Shown here one piece after another: positions 10,660-21,371 of a stretch of 33,659 nt of DNA. Source of the DNA: an uncultured Candidatus Poseidoniales archaeon (lineage in GTDB: Archaea > Thermoplasmatota > Poseidoniia > Poseidoniales > Poseidoniaceae); assembly GCA_902520595.1 (NCBI GenBank), contig CABYOM010000012.1, positions 1-33,659 on the forward strand, written 5' to 3'. Below the pieces are notes generated by a model. The model was given only the letters and a program-made list of their open reading frames with translations. It was not told the origin of the DNA and did no database searches. The position numbers and the translations under genes were made by a program. Every line of letters begins with the position of its first letter. Position 1 is the first letter of the stretch.

Positions 10660-12885
10660 ATGGCGAAAGATGAGAAAACAATGTCCTTGCGTGTGTCAAA
10701 AGCAATTCCGTCCGATGTTGGTCATGGAAGAGCCCGTATTTCGGGAGAAAATGATCTCGGTTTGAAACCGGGTGACATTGTAGAAATTAAAGGCGAAAAG
10801 CGCTCTACTGCTGCGATATACTGGCGAAGCCGACCTGAAGATTCGAAGATGGAAATCATCCGCGTCGATGGTATCATTCGCAAGAACGCAGGCGTAAGTC
10901 TAGGTGACAGAGTCACAGTAAGCAAAGTCGAAGCAAAAGAATGCACGAAACTCGTACTCTCTCCAGTCATGGCCAACAAGCAGAAAGTGAAGTTTGGCCC
11001 GGGAATAGAAGGCTTTGCCCGAAGAGGACTCTCAAAGAGACCCGTTGTTCAGGGCGACCGAATATTCATTCCTGGGATGACGTTGTTTGCTGAAGCGCTT
11101 CCATTTGCTGTTATTCAAACAACGCCGAAAGGAATTGTCAAAGTGACTAATGATACTGACATAGTCATAAAAGACGAAGCAGTTGATGATGTTAATGTTG
11201 GTCAATCGGAAGGTATTACCTACGAAGATGTTGGAGGAATTGGACAACAATTACAAAAGGTTCGTGAGATGATTGAACTTCCTCTTAAGCACCCTGAATT
11301 ATTCCGCCGACTTGGCATTGATCCGCCGAAAGGTGTTCTTCTTCATGGTCCGCCAGGAACGGGTAAGACCATGATTGCAAAGGCTGTAGCAACTGAAGTT
11401 GATGCACACTTCAAAATCATCAATGGACCCGAAATAATTTCAAAGTATTACGGGGAATCTGAGAAACAACTCCGAGAAATCTTTGATGAAGCTGCCGACA
11501 ATGCACCTGCGATTGTTTTTATCGATGAAATAGATTCAATCTGTCCGAAGAGAGAAGATGTAAGCGGTGAAGTCGAGCGACGAGTTGTAGCTCAAATGTT
11601 GACCCTCATGGATGGTATGCAAGGGCGAGATAACGTTGTTGTGATTGGTGCTACCAATCGAAGAGATGCCTTGGACCCTGCACTTCGGCGCCCCGGGCGT
11701 TTTGATCGCGAAATCGAGATAGGCGTTCCTGACCGCGAAGGACGAAGTGAAATCATGGATGTGCACACGCGTCAAATGCCAATTTCTGACGACTTCGAAA
11801 TCAACTGGGTTCTCGACAACACATATGGGTTTGTCGGAGCCGACCTTGCAGCTCTCGTTCGAGAATCTGCTATGAAGGCACTTCGACGCTATCTACCTGA
11901 AATCGATTTGGAAGAAGAAACAATTCCGCCGGAAGTTCTTGAAAAGATGGAAGTTCGAATGGATGATTTCCGTGAAGCGATTAAGGATGTTGAACCGTCT
12001 GCACTTCGTGAGATATATGTCGAAATCCCCGAGATCACTTGGGATGAAGTCGGCGGGCTCGATGAGGTCAAAGACCGTCTCAAAGAATCGGTTGAGTGGC
12101 CTCTTACAAAACCCGAATTATTCGAACACTTCGGAATCAAACCCCCTCGAGGCATCGTTCTGTTTGGTGCACCTGGGACCGGTAAAACCTTGCTTGCAAA
12201 GGCAATCGCGAATGAAGCACAAGCTAATTTCATCAGTATCAAAGGACCTGAAATGATTTCAAAGTGGGTCGGTGAATCTGAGCGCGGTATTCGTGAAATT
12301 TTCAAGAAGGCGAAGCAATCTGCACCTGCGATTATCTTCTTGGATGAATTTGAATCCATTGCGAGCATGCGCTCATCTTCAGGATCCGAAGGTAGCGATG
12401 TTGGTAATCGTGTTGTCAATCAACTCCTTGCCAGCATGGATGGAGTCGAATCGCTGGACGGTGTAATTGTCGTTGCTGCAACTAACCGGCCTGAAATGAT
12501 TGACCCAGCGCTTCTCAGAAGCGGGCGATTTGAGCGAGTTCTTCACGTTCCTCCTCCGGATGCAGGCTCCCGTGAAGTTATCTTCAACATTCACAGCCAG
12601 GGAATGCCTCTGTCCAAGTTTTCTTTGAAAGACATCATCGGTGGTCTTGACGGATTTACGGGTGCTGATATCGAAGCAGTATGCCGAGAAGCCGCCCTTA
12701 TCTGCATGCGAGCAGACAAGAAAAAGGTCACAAAAAAGCACTTTGAAGAAGCGATTAAACGCGTTCGACCAACAGTTAATGCTGAGATGTTGTCATACTA
12801 TCAAAAGATGGAAACACTGCTTACATCAGGGCTATCCAATATCAAGCGAAATCGCGATACTGGATTCGGCATGGAATCAATGTGA
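10660..12885 (+). CDS. Cdc48/VCP-family AAA+ ATPase with two AAA domains
   Basis: Two Walker A motifs ([16 protein letters not shown]), two Walker B motifs ([16 protein letters not shown]), double-psi-barrel-like N-domain. Confidence 0.96.
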
Positions 12886-12955
12886 TGCATTCTCTGGAAT
12901 CGACGCATTGATGTGCTGCACTGTTGTGGTCAACCCATAAGTGAGGTGAAATCGA

Positions 12956-13195
12956 ATGGCTGTCTTTGCTCGTGAAATTGTTGGTCGCCAAGTGGTTGAT
13001 TCACACAGCCAACTTCTCGGCACCTTGCGAGATATTGTCTTTGACAAACAGTCAGGCACAGTCTTAGGTATTCGAGTCAAAATTGAAGAAAACCTTGACC
13101 CAACTGCTCTGCCATGGGATATGAATGAGGGATTGATGGAGATCCCTGTAGATGAGGTCGCTCGAATCGCCTCAAAAATTCACTTGAAGCGATAA
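12956..13195 (+). CDS. PRC-barrel domain protein
   Basis: 79 aa; 'AREIVGRQVVDSHSQLLGTLRDIVFDKQSGTVLGIRVKIEE'; SD GAGGTGA upstream. Confidence 0.85.
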   Translation: MAVFAREIVGRQVVDSHSQLLGTLRDIVFDKQSGTVLGIRVKIEENLDPTALPWDMNEGLMEIPVDEVARIASKIHLKR

Positions 13196-13232
13196 AATCG
13201 TAACATTGAACATTGAAAAGGAGCAAATGCTG

Positions 13233-13316
13233 ATGAGCATTTATCTCCCACATGATAACAACCTTCTAAACACAACCGAACACGTGGCTATGTCGGAACA
13301 GTGCTCTAGAAGGTGA
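13233..13316 (+). CDS. Candidate 27-aa leader ORF (MSIYLPHDNNLLNTTEHVAMSEQCSRR); in-frame ATG also at 13227
   Basis: AAGGAG at 13218-13223 followed 9 nt later by ATG 13233; stop TGA 13314-13316 lies within the SD (AAGGTGA) of the next gene, 4 nt before its ATG. Confidence 0.4.
   Translation: MSIYLPHDNNLLNTTEHVAMSEQCSRR
13261..13314 (+). promoter_or_regulatory. Bulged hairpin that would sequester the ribosome-binding site of the DUF4350-like gene
   Basis: ACCTTCTA (13261-13268) pairs with TAGAAGGT (13307-13314); inner CAC/GTG (13271-13273/13301-13303) and CCGA/TCGG (13276-13279/13293-13296). Confidence 0.4.
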
Positions 13317-13320
13317 CCTC

Positions 13321-14955
13321 ATGCTCGGCAACGTGAATATCAATTACCGAAGAATAGGCCTACAAGCCGCATTCTGGCTCGTAATGTCACTGTTGTTGAT
13401 GAGCGTTTTACTCAATTTCGTGAACCTTTCCAGTTCAAATCAATTATCAGCTTACGATGATGACTGGAATGACATGTCAGCATTCCGGCAAGATATCAAA
13501 GACATGGGGATTCAAACCAGTTCACTCGTGAGTAGTCCTCTCCTTTTAGCCGATATTGAAGACCCTCGCAACACAACATACATTCTTGCCGGAGTTGAAC
13601 GCGATACCCTTTCACTCCCTCAATTTGATAGTGACGGATTCATTACAATCGCGGCTGAAGACGGTTACTCACCATCTGAAATAGATGCTATTGTCGAGTT
13701 TGTCGATGCAGGTGGCACCGCTTTGATTCTCGAAGATTATGGATTTGCAGGAAGTATTGCCCAGGCTTACGGCGTTCGCTATACTGGTTACCAACTTTAT
13801 GACACAACTTATGTTGAAGAACTCGATTACAATTATGTTTGGATGTGTGTTCAAGCAACTCCGTGCGGCATGAACGGTAGCAGTATTGACCCTGAGACCA
13901 TCTCTGTTCATGAACGGTGGAGTGGAATGAATGGCGAAGGCGCTCATCCGTGCAGTCTTCTCAACGGGCAGACAATGCCTCTTGAAGACGCAGGTTTATG
14001 CTCTCAGCACTGGATAAATGGAGAAATCCAGTACAACGCTACTTACCAGTTATTGTTGAATAATATCACAGCACTCGAACTCATTCCCGGAGTAAACGGA
14101 GCACTTTCTGAAGTCTCGATACGTGCAGTTACCAGTAACGAAGCTACCGTAGATGTCAACGGCGATGGAGAAATATGGGTGGGTAATGAACAGACATCAG
14201 AAACCCCAGATTTATGGGGCCAGTTTAATCTCAGTATCGAAGCATGTGCACGCAAGTCATGTGACCCAGATGAAGGTGGAAGAATCGTATTCATGGCTGA
14301 TGGTTCAGCATTGATTAACGCAATTTACGATTATCAAGGGTTTAATGATCCGAACAACCCACTTTATGGAAGCAATGATTGTGTTACGAGTAACGAAAAA
14401 TGTATTCCTGAAAACGATAATAGAAAGTGGGCGATGGACTTCATTGCAGAAGCCCTCATGTCCACGGTTCCAGGCGAGGAAGGTCAACCTGCGGAAGATG
14501 CGATGGTTATTTTCGATGAATCGAGACATCCACAAAACGCATTATTCGCTGATTCTTACAATACGGTATACTTCTTGTTAGTCTATTTTACCGGTGAAGG
14601 ATTAGCAATGCTTCTGCTGTTCCTTGTTCTGTTTATCGCCTTCGAAGCGGTTCTCATCAAAAAGCGAGACCCTGAACCATGGCGCCACGTCTTCAGCATT
14701 ATTTACTACGGATTCGGTGATGCGAACAGATACACCTACTATGCAAAAACCGATAAAATACGCCAAGTATTCCTCTCGAAGGTACGAAATCAAAATGGCT
14801 TGAGCAGAGAAGAATTCCACGCGATGCCAGCTCGTGAACTTGTGTCACTCATCAACGATCCCGTACTGGCTAAATTTGCCATAGAGCCAACAAAATATTC
14901 ACTTGAGCAGACTGTAGCGGTCGTCAAACGAATCAAATCGTGGGGACGAACCTGA
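13321..14955 (+). CDS. DUF4350-like membrane-anchored protein
   Basis: N-term TM 'AAFWLVMSLLLMSVLLNFVN', 'IDAIVEFVDAGGTALILEDYG', C-term TM 'FLLVYFTGEGLAMLLLFLVLFIAFEAVL'; upstream of a DUF58 protein. Confidence 0.65.
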   Translation: MLGNVNINYRRIGLQAAFWLVMSLLLMSVLLNFVNLSSSNQLSAYDDDWNDMSAFRQDIKDMGIQTSSLVSSPLLLADIEDPRNTTYILAGVERDTLSLPQFDSDGFITIAAEDGYSPSEIDAIVEFVDAGGTALILEDYGFAGSIAQAYGVRYTGYQLYDTTYVEELDYNYVWMCVQATPCGMNGSSIDPETISVHERWSGMNGEGAHPCSLLNGQTMPLEDAGLCSQHWINGEIQYNATYQLLLNNITALELIPGVNGALSEVSIRAVTSNEATVDVNGDGEIWVGNEQTSETPDLWGQFNLSIEACARKSCDPDEGGRIVFMADGSALINAIYDYQGFNDPNNPLYGSNDCVTSNEKCIPENDNRKWAMDFIAEALMSTVPGEEGQPAEDAMVIFDESRHPQNALFADSYNTVYFLLVYFTGEGLAMLLLFLVLFIAFEAVLIKKRDPEPWRHVFSIIYYGFGDANRYTYYAKTDKIRQVFLSKVRNQNGLSREEFHAMPARELVSLINDPVLAKFAIEPTKYSLEQTVAVVKRIKSWGRT

Positions 14956-14956
14956 G

Positions 14957-16219
14957 GTGGTAGAAATGTGGACACGTAAGGCATCATTCACCTTCACTGG
15001 CGGTATTGCGCTGATACTTATTGGCATGATGATTGCGAATCTCCAAATGATGATTCTTGGAATTTCCTTCATCGCCTTTATTGTCGTCAATTCATGGATT
15101 TCAGGTCATGGTGATGTTGAAGTGCAACGCACACTTTCTGCAGATAATCTCTACAAAGGAGATGATTTGTACGTTGAACTGTTAGTAACAAACCGTTCCA
15201 ATCGCAATACTCAACTTTTGGAAGTCTACGATAATATTCCTCACGAAATGAAGTTACGCAGTGGGCTAAATCAAATGCGTTTGAATCTGCGTCCTGGAGA
15301 AAGTGCCCGGATTCGCTACGTTCTGCGATGCCCGTTACGAGGCCACTATTCCATCGGGCCCGTTTCTCTTCGATCACGAAATACATTCAACCTCGGTGTT
15401 GATGAGATGTACGTTGACCACCACAGTGACATTGTCATTTTCCCGCAAATCAAAGAAGTGGAAGAAGCCTTCCTCCGCTCGAGAACGCCGAAGATGTATA
15501 CCGGCGCTACAACATTGAGAACACCTGGACAAGGCTCAGAATTTTATTCGCTGAGAGAGTATGTCCCAGGAGACCCGTTCAAGAACATTAACTGGAAAGC
15601 ATTTGCTCGAACTGGAGAACTCATGGTCAATGAAAAGTGTCGAGATGCCGTTACTGACTTGTACATTCTCTTAGACAGTCGAGACATTGCTCGAATCGGT
15701 ACTGTGCTCAAAAATCCACTCGAAATGGGTACCGTTTCTGCTGCGAGTCTTGCAGCATTCTTCCTCAAACGACGCGATTCGGTAGCCTTAGCAATATTTG
15801 ATGACAATCTCTCTTACTTGCCCCCAGATACCGGAGATAAACAATATTTCAAGATTCTAAGCGCACTTGCTGGCGTCTCACCTAAAGGCGCAATGCCACT
15901 TCAAGCGGTCACCAACTCACTTAGTGGCAGATTTAGTCGAGGCAGTCCTGTTTTCATTATATCATCGTGTGAAGGAGATGGTACTGTCCCAGCCGCAGTA
16001 CGTGACCTCGTTGGTCGTGGACATGAGGTTACGGTTCTCTCACCATCGAGTATCGACTTTGAACGATTGGTTAGTCGAATTCCACGTATGTCGTATGAAG
16101 TTCTCAAACTTGAACGTCAAAACCGTCTTACGACTTTAGCTGGTTCTGGTGCTATGGTTATCGACTGGATGCCAGACATGGATCTGTCACAAGCGCTGAT
16201 GCAAGTGAGGGGGTATTAG
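14957..16219 (+). CDS. DUF58 domain protein (GTG start at 14957 or ATG at 14966)
   Basis: 'SLREYVPGDPFKNINWKAFARTGELMVNEK' is the DUF58 signature; two N-terminal TM helices. Confidence 0.9.
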   Translation: MVEMWTRKASFTFTGGIALILIGMMIANLQMMILGISFIAFIVVNSWISGHGDVEVQRTLSADNLYKGDDLYVELLVTNRSNRNTQLLEVYDNIPHEMKLRSGLNQMRLNLRPGESARIRYVLRCPLRGHYSIGPVSLRSRNTFNLGVDEMYVDHHSDIVIFPQIKEVEEAFLRSRTPKMYTGATTLRTPGQGSEFYSLREYVPGDPFKNINWKAFARTGELMVNEKCRDAVTDLYILLDSRDIARIGTVLKNPLEMGTVSAASLAAFFLKRRDSVALAIFDDNLSYLPPDTGDKQYFKILSALAGVSPKGAMPLQAVTNSLSGRFSRGSPVFIISSCEGDGTVPAAVRDLVGRGHEVTVLSPSSIDFERLVSRIPRMSYEVLKLERQNRLTTLAGSGAMVIDWMPDMDLSQALMQVRGY

Positions 16220-16220
16220 A

Positions 16221-17435
16221 ATGGCAGATGATGTTGGACTTCAAGGAGACGTCACCATTAGTGGTGAAGTCAAACCCAGAACACTGCACCTGAAAATGCT
16301 GCGTAAACAATGGCAAATCATCACCCTGCAAATTATCGCTACAGTGGCACTAATCGGTATGTATCTTGAAGTCGTATCGACCTATGTTGTAGGTTCAATT
16401 GACCATACTATGCTCTTTGACACCATCGAAATTCTCATTGGAGACCAATTACCAATCGGTGATTGGTTAACTGGAGAAGGCCGGACTGGTTTAGCCCGAT
16501 TCTTTGTACCCCTCATATTGGGATTGGCAGTTGGTGGAGGAATGGCGCTTCTTGCATTCCAAACCCCAACTGTACAACAACGGGTAAAACTCGGATTTAT
16601 CATTACTCTCATTGTCGTATTGGTCGGTCAACTGTTGTTTTCTTGGCTAACTGGAATGCTCTTTAGTTTCAATTTACGACTTCCAAGTTCAAGTGAATTA
16701 AGTACCTTGGAATGGCCTTTGTTGATGATTTTGTCGTTGATGATTCTCTTCATCTATCTTTTACCCGTCATCATGGGAGCCAGAGGAATATGGGGTCTTT
16801 CACGACGTTCTATCGCATGGGCAATTGGATTCACGCTGTTGTTCCTCGGTGTTCATGCGATCCTTGCATTCCCGCTCATTAACGGCCAACTTGGTGATTA
16901 TGGCAATTCAGTAAGTGTCATTGGCGCCCAATTCAGTGAGCCAACCATTGGTATCTTCGGACTTATGTTGGTGACAAATGAACAATTTGCCCTCATCATG
17001 ATCGCCATACTCATCATGGTCTTCCAAGAGTCGTCTTACGGTGTTATTCGCTACCTTGAATACGCTTACCGCCTTCCTGAATCGTGTAAAAGAGACCCCG
17101 AATATGTTCGACAGATGGACAATGTTCTCAACACGCACCTCAAGCATACTTTTGGGTTCCTCGGATTAACTGCAATTGCAACAATAGTCGCACTTGGATT
17201 CCATAGTGTTCTGCTCGATATTGTAAAAGATTCAACTGGAAGTCAATGGGCTGGCCAAGTTTCTGAATCCATCGAGTTATCGTTAACCTACGGATTAGTT
17301 ATCTCTGCTGCCATGTTTTTGAGTATTATGGCTCTGCTTCGATTCTTCGTTCCATGGGAGAGAATATGGGGCCTCATCTATGCTCGTAATACCCCAGAGG
17401 CCTCTTCCCAAACAAAGGAAATTGTTGAAATTTGA
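16221..17435 (+). CDS. Multi-pass membrane protein of the DUF58 operon
   Basis: Several hydrophobic segments; starts 1 nt after the upstream stop. Confidence 0.65.
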   Translation: MADDVGLQGDVTISGEVKPRTLHLKMLRKQWQIITLQIIATVALIGMYLEVVSTYVVGSIDHTMLFDTIEILIGDQLPIGDWLTGEGRTGLARFFVPLILGLAVGGGMALLAFQTPTVQQRVKLGFIITLIVVLVGQLLFSWLTGMLFSFNLRLPSSSELSTLEWPLLMILSLMILFIYLLPVIMGARGIWGLSRRSIAWAIGFTLLFLGVHAILAFPLINGQLGDYGNSVSVIGAQFSEPTIGIFGLMLVTNEQFALIMIAILIMVFQESSYGVIRYLEYAYRLPESCKRDPEYVRQMDNVLNTHLKHTFGFLGLTAIATIVALGFHSVLLDIVKDSTGSQWAGQVSESIELSLTYGLVISAAMFLSIMALLRFFVPWERIWGLIYARNTPEASSQTKEIVEI

Positions 17436-17436
17436 T

Positions 17437-17685
17437 TCAGTCTCCAGATGAATGAAGGGATTGAACGGCTCGTCCGAGTAATTCTACGCACATGAGTAAG
17501 AGCAACGGCAGGCCACACCAAGCTGCCAGACTCCCGATTATCCCTTCTTTCAAATCAAGAGCATACGGGTACAAAAAGTAGAATCCAATACAGGCTGAAA
17601 GAAAGAGAAGCCGTTCAATGATTAACGGATATTTCTTACCCACAGACTCATCACGATGAGTCAATGTATTGACTTCTGAAGACAT
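17437..17685 (-). CDS. Small (about 82 aa) membrane protein, start MSSEVN at 17685
   Basis: Two hydrophobic segments 'LLFLSACIGFYFLYPYAL', 'GIIGSLAAWCGLPLLLLMCVELLG'; SD GAGGTGG upstream of ATG 17685 avoids overlap with the preceding gene. Confidence 0.6.
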   Translation of the reverse strand: MSSEVNTLTHRDESVGKKYPLIIERLLFLSACIGFYFLYPYALDLKEGIIGSLAAWCGLPLLLLMCVELLGRAVQSLHSSGD

Positions 17686-17695
17686 CCTTACCACC

Positions 17696-20600
17696 TCAGA
17701 GGTCAAGGCCAGACAAACGTGCTTCAAGTGCCGCTAATGCTGGGTCTGTTGCTTGTTCTACCGTTGGTTCTTTTCGATGATTCCAAGAGGCATCGAGTCG
17801 GGCGAGTTCCGCCTCTAATTCGGCTCGTTCATCACTTTGACTTGAAGCAGAATCTACAGACATAGGAAGAGGTTCACGAACGCTAACATTCATCTCACCT
17901 TCCTCCTCTTCATCAACCGGCACCGGTAGGGATTCCCACCCCGCTTCGTCAACGACAACTTCACTGGGTTCAGCATCCAATGATACAGGAATATTTCCTG
18001 CAAGTGAAGATTCCATATCATTCAACATTTCTTCTTCGACAGGAGTTCGCTGAGCGGCAGGCACGGCATTACGCTCATACGGTAGTAAACCATCTCGCTG
18101 GAATTCCCATAGCATACCTCGAGGGACTCCATCTGCAAGTCCTGATGCATCGAGTTGAGTAATCAATTCTTCCAAAACTCGTGCTGTATCTTCCAGAGCA
18201 ATTGCTTCTCCTGCATCTCGCTGATCAGCCTCGAGGTAAATGTCATCGAGAGCAACCTGAATCAACTTACGAGTTGCTTGAGCAATACTTGGAAGTGCCT
18301 CTGGCCGGGTACAATTGTTGAGTAATGCCTCGACTTCTTGTGGAGGCGCCCCTAAGCGAACGAGCTGTTCTAGGACGTTTCTTAGACGGCGAAGCATCGT
18401 AATTGAACGATCAAAGTCTTCTAACAAATGCTCCAGGTCAATGACAACATGACCGACTGTCTCTCCGAGTTGATGTTCGAGTCTTTGTTGCACTGACCAT
18501 CGTGCAAGTCCACGAACTGCGCCTGCGGTCTGGGGCACTTGGCGTTCCAGTAACGTCATGACCTCACTTGAAAGAAGGTGGCGAGGCGTTGCTGCAACAT
18601 GGTCTACAGTCGATTGAATTACTTGTAAACCACGTTCCACAGCACGGTCCAGAAGCGTGACTGAATAGCCAAGTGCACGTGCGCTTTCAAGACGTTCTAG
18701 CACAGGTCCGAGACCGTCAAAGGTTGAAGCATCATCAAGCAGGGCCTGAGCTAAAGGCTCTTCAGCAAGACGTGCTCGAAGTCGTTCTGCTTCCTGAATA
18801 TCTGAAAGTGCATCTTCGTGAGCCTGTGAAAGTGCTTCAGCTCGCTCGATTAAAGAAATCAATTCTGCTTCAGCATGACCGCGCCTAGCACCTAAATCAC
18901 CGAGTTCGCGTAAGGTTTGGCGCCTTTCAGTCATCAGTTCCCTTAGTTCAGCCTGAACTTGGGCTTGACGAGCCTCGTCGGCACTCAAACGGTTACGGTC
19001 TTCTTCTGATCGACGTCGAGAGGCTTTTGCCTCAGCATCAATGGTTTCCAACTCCGAGGTTTGGGTGTGAATCTTTTCCTCCAAGAGCATTGATTCAGCC
19101 TGTACTCGAGTGTGCCGCTCACGAGTTGCTTCAACTTGCTCTTGCAAAACTCGCAATCGACGCTCATCATCTTCTGATTGTTGACGAATTGTCGCAAGTT
19201 GTTCACTGCTTGCTAGTAAGTCTGCATTAAGTTGAGATTCTTTCAAGGCTAATTCCTCAATTTCAGAGCGCAGCGCTTCACTTGAAGATGCATCTCCAAG
19301 TGCTTTAGCAAGTTCAGATGCCCGCACACTGACTTGATGTTCAAGTTCATTTACCCTCTTTACCAAACGTTCAGCTCGATTTTCTGCTTGTTCAGTCGCA
19401 GCCTTCGATTCTGCAAGGTCGAGTTGCATACGATCGAGTGAGGAGTCTTTTTCCTCAATCTTGGTGATCGATTCCATTCGTGATTCTGAAGCTTCTCGAG
19501 CGAGAATTTGAGCGGCGTTCTTCGCCGTGAGGGTTTCCTCTAAGCGACTTGCGAGTGCGGCCTTTTCTTTCACCAACTCATCAATTCTGTGATCTGCCGC
19601 TTCCAAACGGCGACGGAGACCTGAGTCAACTGCCAAATCTTGAGGGACTTCGCCACCCAATCCACCACTAACATCTTCAAAGGTTTCTGAAAATTTCACC
19701 GATGCACGCTTAGCACGGAGAATCCCCATTCCAATTTCAAAACCAAAAAGGTCACTCAGTTTCGCATTGAGATTTGCACGACGGCTTTCCGAACGAGTGC
19801 GGAGAGTAACCAATAATTCTCTAAACGCCTCAAGGGTGAATGCTTCGATTGTCCCAGATTCTCGTGAAACAATACTGCCAACTGGAAGTCGGTGGAGCTT
19901 CAAAACCCATTTTGAGTCGGTGAATTTTTCCATTGCTTTCTCAAATGTATCTCCTTCTGGCGCTGAAATTCCGACTGGAATTCCCCTCGACAAAAGAACT
20001 GATACGGAATTGGATGATTGTCCAGCCTGTAAATGTCCAGTGACTTCCTCGGTAACTGCTGCCGTCAACATTGAAACAATGGCATCCGGCCCTCCTCGAC
20101 CTTCCCGCAATACGAACCCTTCGGGAATTGCTCCTCCTTGAGCACCGATTGCGCCAACTTCACCATCGAGAAGTGAGGATGCTGCCGAGATAAGACGTGC
20201 GTGATTGGTATTGGCTTCCGTCCAAACCCCCAAGGAAATATCTCCAGATTCTGCAAGGAGAAGTGCACCATCGTTCGTGTGGAGAGTCCAATGGCTCGAA
20301 CCGCTTAGGCCAAGTCCATCATTGAGGGTCTCCATACGAATATCGGAAAGTGTCGAATGGATTTGTGCGGAAAGGCTTTCAGGTTCGGAAGGCAAGTCGC
20401 CGATAAAATCGATAAGCATACCTTGGTCAACAACAACTCCTCCACGAACTGTGTCTTGTTCAAAAAGGACGCGTAGAACTGCCGATAGGTCTCGGCTCAT
20501 CAAACGTTGAAGAGCATTACCACGTGCTAACAAACCTTGCCTATCCGCAGTAAATTCAAACGCTTCAGGAACAGTTTCTGCAACGCTTCCAAGACCAGCG

Positions 20601-20884
20601 AGAGAATATCGACTTGCAGTAAATCTGAACGAACCTTCTGCTTCAATCTCCTCAAGTCGAATACGAGCTTCTTTTCCACCTAACATGAGTTTGCCCGAGC
20701 CAGGCTCTGCAAGCCAACCGACAATACGTCCAGCGCGAACTAAACGATGACCTGCAGGAGTTTTTCTACGACCAACCCAGGTGCTGATAACACCATGGTC
20801 GAAGGGTTGGATTGTGCCTTCGCTAACATCGATTTCTTCTTCAACTTTGATTCCTTCTGGTAGGTTAAACATGGTATCACTCAC
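17696..20884 (-). CDS. Large coiled-coil protein with an N-terminal roadblock-like region
   Basis: 1062 aa; long heptad-rich region 'RLEAADHRIDELVKEKAALASRLEETL...'; GTG start overlapping the upstream stop (GTGA). Confidence 0.75.
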   Translation of the reverse strand: MSDTMFNLPEGIKVEEEIDVSEGTIQPFDHGVISTWVGRRKTPAGHRLVRAGRIVGWLAEPGSGKLMLGGKEARIRLEEIEAEGSFRFTASRYSLAGLGSVAETVPEAFEFTADRQGLLARGNALQRLMSRDLSAVLRVLFEQDTVRGGVVVDQGMLIDFIGDLPSEPESLSAQIHSTLSDIRMETLNDGLGLSGSSHWTLHTNDGALLLAESGDISLGVWTEANTNHARLISAASSLLDGEVGAIGAQGGAIPEGFVLREGRGGPDAIVSMLTAAVTEEVTGHLQAGQSSNSVSVLLSRGIPVGISAPEGDTFEKAMEKFTDSKWVLKLHRLPVGSIVSRESGTIEAFTLEAFRELLVTLRTRSESRRANLNAKLSDLFGFEIGMGILRAKRASVKFSETFEDVSGGLGGEVPQDLAVDSGLRRRLEAADHRIDELVKEKAALASRLEETLTAKNAAQILAREASESRMESITKIEEKDSSLDRMQLDLAESKAATEQAENRAERLVKRVNELEHQVSVRASELAKALGDASSSEALRSEIEELALKESQLNADLLASSEQLATIRQQSEDDERRLRVLQEQVEATRERHTRVQAESMLLEEKIHTQTSELETIDAEAKASRRRSEEDRNRLSADEARQAQVQAELRELMTERRQTLRELGDLGARRGHAEAELISLIERAEALSQAHEDALSDIQEAERLRARLAEEPLAQALLDDASTFDGLGPVLERLESARALGYSVTLLDRAVERGLQVIQSTVDHVAATPRHLLSSEVMTLLERQVPQTAGAVRGLARWSVQQRLEHQLGETVGHVVIDLEHLLEDFDRSITMLRRLRNVLEQLVRLGAPPQEVEALLNNCTRPEALPSIAQATRKLIQVALDDIYLEADQRDAGEAIALEDTARVLEELITQLDASGLADGVPRGMLWEFQRDGLLPYERNAVPAAQRTPVEEEMLNDMESSLAGNIPVSLDAEPSEVVVDEAGWESLPVPVDEEEEGEMNVSVREPLPMSVDSASSQSDERAELEAELARLDASWNHRKEPTVEQATDPALAALEARLSGLDL

Positions 20885-21231
20885 ATTCTTGGGGTTGTCG
20901 CCAAAATACGACGGTCTCGATCTAGGGCATGACGCCAGCGAGCTAATCGCCCGCCATCGCCACTGAGAACTACGATTCTATTCGGTGCAGCAATGTCAAC
21001 AACCATACGTTTGCCTCCTTCACACCACACTTCATAGACTTGGCCAAGACCAAGTGCATGCCCTGTTTCTTGAGCAACATGAATCATTTCAATCGCATCT
21101 TGGAAAGGAGGGAGAATCCCTTCTTCACCAACGCTTGCTAATAATTGTCCTGAGTCATCAATAAGCATTGCTTGTTCAACACCTTCAAGGCGAACAAATC
21201 CAGCAAGAACTCGTTGCAACATGGCCCTCAA
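20881..21231 (-). CDS. Roadblock/LC7 domain protein
   Basis: 116 aa; 'MLQRVLAGFVRLEGVEQAMLIDDSGQLLASVGEEG...' followed by alpha-beta-beta-beta-alpha-like alternation. Confidence 0.65.
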   Translation of the reverse strand: MRAMLQRVLAGFVRLEGVEQAMLIDDSGQLLASVGEEGILPPFQDAIEMIHVAQETGHALGLGQVYEVWCEGGKRMVVDIAAPNRIVVLSGDGGRLARWRHALDRDRRILATTPRM

Positions 21232-21252: not shown

Positions 21253-21371
21253 CTTCAAGTAGTTTTGCGCTTTTATCCCCCTAAAGGGGGATTTGAAGAC
21301 CTAAATTGATTTTCCAACTGGAGAATCAAAAAAAGTGGTCGCGGAGATGTCTGACATTACTCTTTTCCGCG
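21253..21371. ncRNA. Candidate structured RNA or multi-hairpin regulatory region (speculative)
   Basis: Three successive inverted repeats: CTTCAA/TTGAAG enclosing ATCCCCCT-AA-AGGGGGAT; TTGATTTTCC-AACT-GGAGAATCAA; CGCGGA...TCCGCG. Confidence 0.3.

Follow-up and report, generated by a model that had tools for sequence, protein, structure and literature searches.

A 33,659-nt stretch of DNA from an uncultured Candidatus Poseidoniales archaeon (contig CABYOM010000012.1 of assembly GCA_902520595.1, which is 1.42 Mb in size and 70% complete), hereafter the window, carries a three-gene unit in which a small stand-alone Roadblock/LC7 protein, LC7a, is followed by a giant coiled-coil protein, CC, with a predicted roadblock domain of its own, and then by a small membrane protein, all on the minus strand. 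Roadblock domains are usually explained as regulators of Ras-like GTPases. The LC7a-CC pair, of which our literature searches found no description, puts a known domain into a new architecture, and the usual partner was not detected in the lineage that carries it; the finding is both real and somewhat larger than in the preliminary description of this DNA. We are highly confident of the anatomy of the unit; that it represents a Poseidoniales multi-roadblock protein scaffold working without a Ras-like GTPase is a proposal for which we see even chances of being right or wrong.

Roadblock domains in two adjacent genes

Judged by its family profile, LC7a is a true Roadblock/LC7 protein, as had been supposed. 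Nine of the 16 family members gave a match to the Pfam model Robl_LC7 (best 9e-8), the copy in the window falling just under the cut-off (21.9 versus 23 bits), and the profile found the Thorarchaeota roadblock 7f8m (E = 2.4e-8) and the MK-D1 roadblock 7yh1 (E = 3.1e-7) in the PDB, with an alignment spanning positions 6-95 of 112, nearly the full length.

Residues ~124-241 of CC are likewise predicted to fold as a roadblock, with sequence evidence that is weaker than the fold evidence but consistent with it. The AlphaFold model of the N-terminal 416 residues (numbered here from the GTG codon; 40-sequence alignment; mean predicted local distance difference test score, pLDDT, 78.6) shows the order alpha-beta-beta-alpha-beta-beta-beta-alpha, in agreement, element for element, with the roadblock topology that had been parsed by eye for residues 132-240, and the prediction returned this fold and not another. 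Foldseek comparison of the model yielded 108 PDB matches at E ≤ 0.001, and the best 50 of the 108 were all members of the roadblock/LC7 family (best 5.5e-6), among them Asgard roadblocks, MglB, Ragulator subunits and dynein light chains; these matches were allotted to residues ~124-241 by topology, since the aligned query residues were not printed. The profile of the domain matched the CvnB5 roadblock 3leq at 3.4e-4. Robl_LC7 gave weak matches to 7 of 19 CC members (Pfam best 0.0013) and none to the window copy itself, and an independent profile, that of the second stand-alone roadblock protein LC7b (see below), also detected the domain.

The long coiled coil recognised earlier in CC is real: conserved hydrophobic residues follow the 3.5-residue heptad period over residues ~420-710, well above shuffled controls, and the segment would measure ~40 nm if continuous (289 residues x about 0.15 nm). 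It leads into the most conserved part of CC, the C-terminal domain, with a mean column identity of 74% for residues 640-950 across both families and the motifs EEPLAQALL and TPRHLLSxEVMxLLERQxPxTAxxVRGLxRWSVQxRLE. The model of this domain is all-helical at moderate confidence (pLDDT 75), and its Foldseek matches in the PDB did not fall below E = 0.19, which for a helical model of that quality is a weak negative. Matches to FliS (E = 0.014) and bHLH_IRO3 were judged to be chance, with no significant fold or profile relative, and the domain is best called unrecognised in these searches rather than proven new.

Distribution, linkage and joint loss

The class sample of 144 genomes includes 80 with a CC homologue, conserved over the full length at 34-96% identity, indicating that these genes are not chance open reading frames. 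CC is found only in Poseidoniales, in every genus sampled of Poseidoniaceae (coded f1) and in the early-branching genera g14, g16, g18 and g21 of family f2, taken as Thalassarchaeaceae by elimination; f3 denotes the sister family. The archaeal (Poseidoniales) origin of the window is supported, and the named assemblies nearest to it are those of Candidatus Poseidoniaceae (Marine Group IIa). Matches elsewhere in the phylum sample (G222, G282 and G336) covered the coiled coil only and were set aside as chance. The archaeal locus also appears, at 54% identity, in an assembly titled Flavobacteriales bacterium (L157, PAYR01000017.1), probably a mislabelled or mixed bin.

LC7a lies directly upstream of CC in 75 of the 75 genome loci with enough sequence, and also in the most divergent genera, g14 and g18, in which it is a diverged gene detected by a hidden Markov model; the pair can be regarded as co-conserved. 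The CC tree broadly agrees with the tree of the flanking genes, arguing for vertical descent. Fifteen f2 genomes without CC nevertheless keep the locus, with CDC48-PRC-DUF4350-DUF58 and the gene for a 404-aa protein on one side and TtuA on the other; LC7a and CC are absent between them, and all that is left at the site in 13 of the 15 is a small membrane protein homologous to that of the unit (profile-profile E = 2e-15). The CC-lacking genera form one clade (bootstrap 100) nested among CC-bearing ones, so that a single loss of LC7a and CC in the streamlined Thalassarchaeaceae is the simplest history. The loss removed LC7a and CC as one unit, and the membrane protein is independent of both. Where it stands alone between the 404-aa gene and TtuA (L195-L209), its conserved start, TLxGRxE...YPxxxER, suggests a function of its own.

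Another stand-alone roadblock protein, LC7b (105-125 aa), was found by the Robl_LC7 search across the class at a locus unlinked to CC, where it adjoins a 250-350-aa coiled-coil protein, for which no homology to CC was found, and usually a GNAT acetyltransferase. Its profile gave matches in 74 genomes, a few of them weak, representing 13 of 14 CC-bearing genera and no CC-lacking genus. As the absence of LC7b maps to one branch, this shared distribution is suggestive rather than strong as a sign of a connection with CC.

Search for a Ras-like GTPase

The search for a partner GTPase used one model, Roc, which recovered Ras-like GTPases from 11 of the 14 genomes used as controls. In f3, the sister family, most genomes had one such GTPase by this model, which, used singly, found none in Poseidoniales, CC-bearing genomes included, except in G080; no GTPase was found in the CC operon or at the LC7b locus. 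The earlier observation that no GTPase partner is visible in the window can therefore be extended to the CC-bearing genomes, G080 excepted, and its extension makes a role of LC7a and CC as GTPase regulators unlikely. The matches in G080 are on G080:C15 and G080:C7, and one of them consists of consecutive exon-like pieces of a single domain in separate frames, as in intron-containing eukaryotic DNA; they are probably eukaryotic contamination.

A proposed scaffold without a GTPase, and its alternatives

Roadblock proteins form dimers that serve as platforms, and the roadblock/longin group includes proteins with roles other than GTPase regulation (PMC10933270). In the mechanism that we propose, LC7a, and perhaps LC7b too, would pair with the roadblock domain of CC via the usual roadblock dimer interface, and the resulting platform would lie at the N-terminus of CC molecules dimerised through a parallel coiled coil. 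This coiled coil would act as a rigid spacer that sets a fixed distance between this platform and whatever the conserved C-terminal domain docks, and the neighbouring membrane protein may tether the scaffold. The roadblock modules would provide surfaces for protein docking and dimerisation, comparable to those of dynein light chains or the Ragulator scaffold, and would not act as a GTPase-activating protein (GAP) or guanine nucleotide exchange factor (GEF). We consider this mechanism about evenly poised between true and false, and the cellular role is one that we infer. Its most specific form, a Ragulator-like scaffold of CC, LC7a and LC7b without a Ras-like GTPase, in which the roadblocks are purely an assembly platform on the ~40-nm coiled coil and the C-terminal domain belongs to a new family, is more tentative, and we lean against it. 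As regards the membrane-linked, coiled-coil archaeal scaffold suggested earlier, the scaffold-like anatomy stands; the membrane link is a possibility suggested by the adjoining small membrane gene, which persists singly in 13 of 15 CC-lacking genomes.

Several observations weigh against the scaffold proposal. A diverged GTPase partner could be missed by the single Roc model. Compared profile to profile, LC7a and the CC domain show only weak similarity (E = 0.015-0.025), albeit in the correct register, and any CC-LC7a or CC-LC7b complex is putative. LC7a and CC were lost jointly on one branch, so that the co-occurrence with LC7b counts as a single event rather than several. Genomes without CC can retain the membrane protein, which is hence no obligate tether or partner. 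Finally, synteny across the order extends to the entire neighbourhood, so adjacency by itself says little; with adjacency conserved throughout the block, the coupling of LC7a and CC is better argued from their joint loss.

This joint loss bears directly on the possibility that LC7a and CC merely adjoin each other and have separate functions within a conserved gene block. The surrounding block, CDC48-PRC-DUF4350-DUF58-404aa ... TtuA-PyrI-PyrB, is indeed conserved across the whole order; however, LC7a and CC were lost together, with the flanking genes and usually the membrane gene remaining, and both contain a roadblock domain, a heteromer-forming fold, all of which leaves mere adjacency quite unlikely. 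We consider it very unlikely that the two regulate, in the conventional roadblock manner (as GAP, GEF or effector platform), an MglA/Rag-like small GTPase whose gene lies elsewhere. The Roc model found no Poseidoniales Ras-like GTPase apart from the split matches in one genome, yet found them in f3 and in control archaea, and neither the operon nor the LC7b locus holds a GTPase gene, against which may be set the classic role of MglB and Ragulator (PMC4316618, PMC10933270) and the two-part roadblock-containing GAP formed by MglB and RomY (PMC9481161), which LC7a plus CC resembles.

A function as an accessory of the type IV pilus or archaellum, with CC and its roadblock partners as a cytoplasmic or polar platform for the Poseidoniales archaellum, appears unlikely. 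CC is present without archaellin in g16 (three genomes) and g21 (one genome), archaellin is present without CC in g13 and g20, no pilus gene lies in the CC neighbourhood, and FlaD/E is absent from the class, although almost every Poseidoniaceae genome, as well as the CC-bearing g14 and g18, does have archaellin. The two distributions overlap only in part, and an archaellum-specific role was rejected for lack of consistent co-occurrence and co-localisation. Surveys in the literature paint a similarly partial picture: archaellum genes occur in all Marine Group IIa (MGIIa) and only some Marine Group IIb (MGIIb) archaea, and oligosaccharide use is limited to MGIIa and the three most basal MGIIb subclades (PMC6336850; PMC6461757); in the account of Tully et al. 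(PMC6336850), the MGIIb subclades with motility and those with oligosaccharide use are only partly the same. With genera matched to subclades by inference, CC seems to track the oligosaccharide-use pattern better than that of the archaellum. Least probable, and hardly to be expected, is a chromosome or DNA-tethering coiled-coil protein of the SMC/Rad50 kind: NCBIfam SMC and Rad50 models do match CC residues 432-708 weakly, but the matches are limited to the coiled coil and far below cut-offs, and no ABC ATPase head was recognised in CC, whose N-terminal part has the predicted roadblock and whose C-terminal domain showed no ATPase fold. CC was accordingly not assigned to SMC/Rad50, which have ABC ATPase heads at both ends.

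Comparison with known roadblock systems

Among known systems, the proposed scaffold resembles Ragulator (LAMTOR1-5), in which the LAMTOR2/3 and LAMTOR4/5 heterodimers sit on the extended LAMTOR1: it would likewise combine several different roadblock modules with an extended scaffold protein, possibly near a membrane, and the CC domain resembles LAMTOR structures in fold, with a weak profile match to LAMTOR4. Unlike in Ragulator, one roadblock is built into the giant coiled-coil protein itself, and no Rag-like or Ras-like GTPase was found in the genomes. In the MglB/MglC/RomY regulators of Myxococcus MglA, too, a small roadblock protein acts alongside a partner of roadblock kind, and there are fold matches of the CC domain to MglB and a profile match of LC7a to MglC; an MglA-like GTPase was again not found, and CC, with its coiled coil and unrecognised C-terminal domain, greatly exceeds these proteins in size. 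The closest solved relatives, of LC7a by profile and of the CC domain by fold, are the Asgard roadblocks 7f8m, 7yh1 and 9jue, which, however, stand alone without a coiled-coil fusion and come from genomes with many small GTPases (PMC10933270). Archaeal LC7 proteins of arCOG02603, likewise archaeal roadblock/LC7 proteins, sit in type IV pilus loci (PMC4858521), unlike LC7a, which is outside such loci and whose distribution is not strictly that of archaellin.

A conserved roadblock system without a detected Ras-like GTPase lets one ask what the fold does alone, and opens the question of whether the use of roadblocks as scaffolds preceded GTPase control. Few archaeal groups are as abundant in the surface ocean as Marine Group II. 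To our knowledge, the cytoplasmic architecture of these uncultured archaea is essentially unknown, and the LC7a-CC unit offers a concrete candidate for their intracellular organisation.

Gene layout, other CC regions and neighbouring features

The open reading frames of the preliminary description are present, on the minus strand, which it had left unsaid (Table 1). Their 4-base GTGA overlap is real for the mechanically called frames; the translational coupling read from it needs start codons that conservation disfavours. The conserved M-L-Q-R points to ATG 21222 as the start of LC7a, in place of the mechanical TTG 21231, 9 nt earlier, and M-F-x-L-P, shared by nearly all homologues, to ATG 20872 for CC (GTG 20884 would give 1062 aa). 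These starts leave an 8-nt gap in place of the overlap, and the tight spacing is retained. The small membrane protein downstream of CC, also noted earlier, is better read as 82 aa; its gene begins 10 nt past the CC stop, preceded by a ribosome-binding-like GAGGTGG.

Table 1. Positions of the LC7a-CC unit, the regions of CC and examples of LC7b loci (window positions unless a locus is given)
Feature	Position	Strand	Basis
LC7a, stand-alone Roadblock/LC7 protein, 113 aa	20881..21222	-	Pfam Robl_LC7 and PDB profile matches
CC, giant coiled-coil protein, ~1058 aa	17696..20872	-	Homologues in 80/144 class genomes; alignment
CC N-terminal beta-rich domain, residues ~5-121	20522..20872	-	AlphaFold bbbb-a-b-a, pLDDT ~87
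CC internal Roadblock/LC7 domain (predicted), residues ~124-241	20162..20515	-	AlphaFold topology, Foldseek, profile matches
CC third alpha/beta domain, residues ~257-360, then a helix	19805..20116	-	AlphaFold b-a-b-b-b-a-b, pLDDT ~87
CC coiled coil, residues ~420-708	18761..19627	-	Conserved hydrophobics at a 3.5-residue period
CC C-terminal helical domain, residues ~709-945	18050..18760	-	Conservation, all-helical model
Small two-helix membrane protein, third gene, 82 aa	17437..17685	-	Kept downstream of CC in most loci
LC7b examples	L222:9788-10138, L223:9774-10079, L225:6201-6521, others		LC7b profile

Two further domains of CC flank its predicted roadblock. For the N-terminal one (residues ~5-121), the PDB profile search yielded only E ≥ 0.06 and no recognised relative, and for the third domain (residues ~257-360) no relative was found in Pfam or the PDB. 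A PATAN-MglB link in the literature, together with the pattern, had prompted a comparison of residues 248-402 with PATAN/DUF4388; no CC member matched DUF4388 even with E up to 10 allowed, nor was DUF4388 found in 147 genomes of the phylum. In a closed Marine Group II chromosome (G002:C1:1852802-1855980; L018, L100), CC is split over two frames with one TGA, representing a frameshift, a real disruption or a sequencing error.

A promoter and terminator scan of the unit showed no excess over shuffles. A palindrome, ATCCCCCTTTAGGGGGAT, at 21275-21292, ~53 nt upstream of the LC7a start, may be an operator. Convergent with the CC unit, on the plus strand at 10660-17435, lies the order-wide conserved block of CDC48, PRC barrel, DUF4350, DUF58 and the uncharacterised 404-aa protein.

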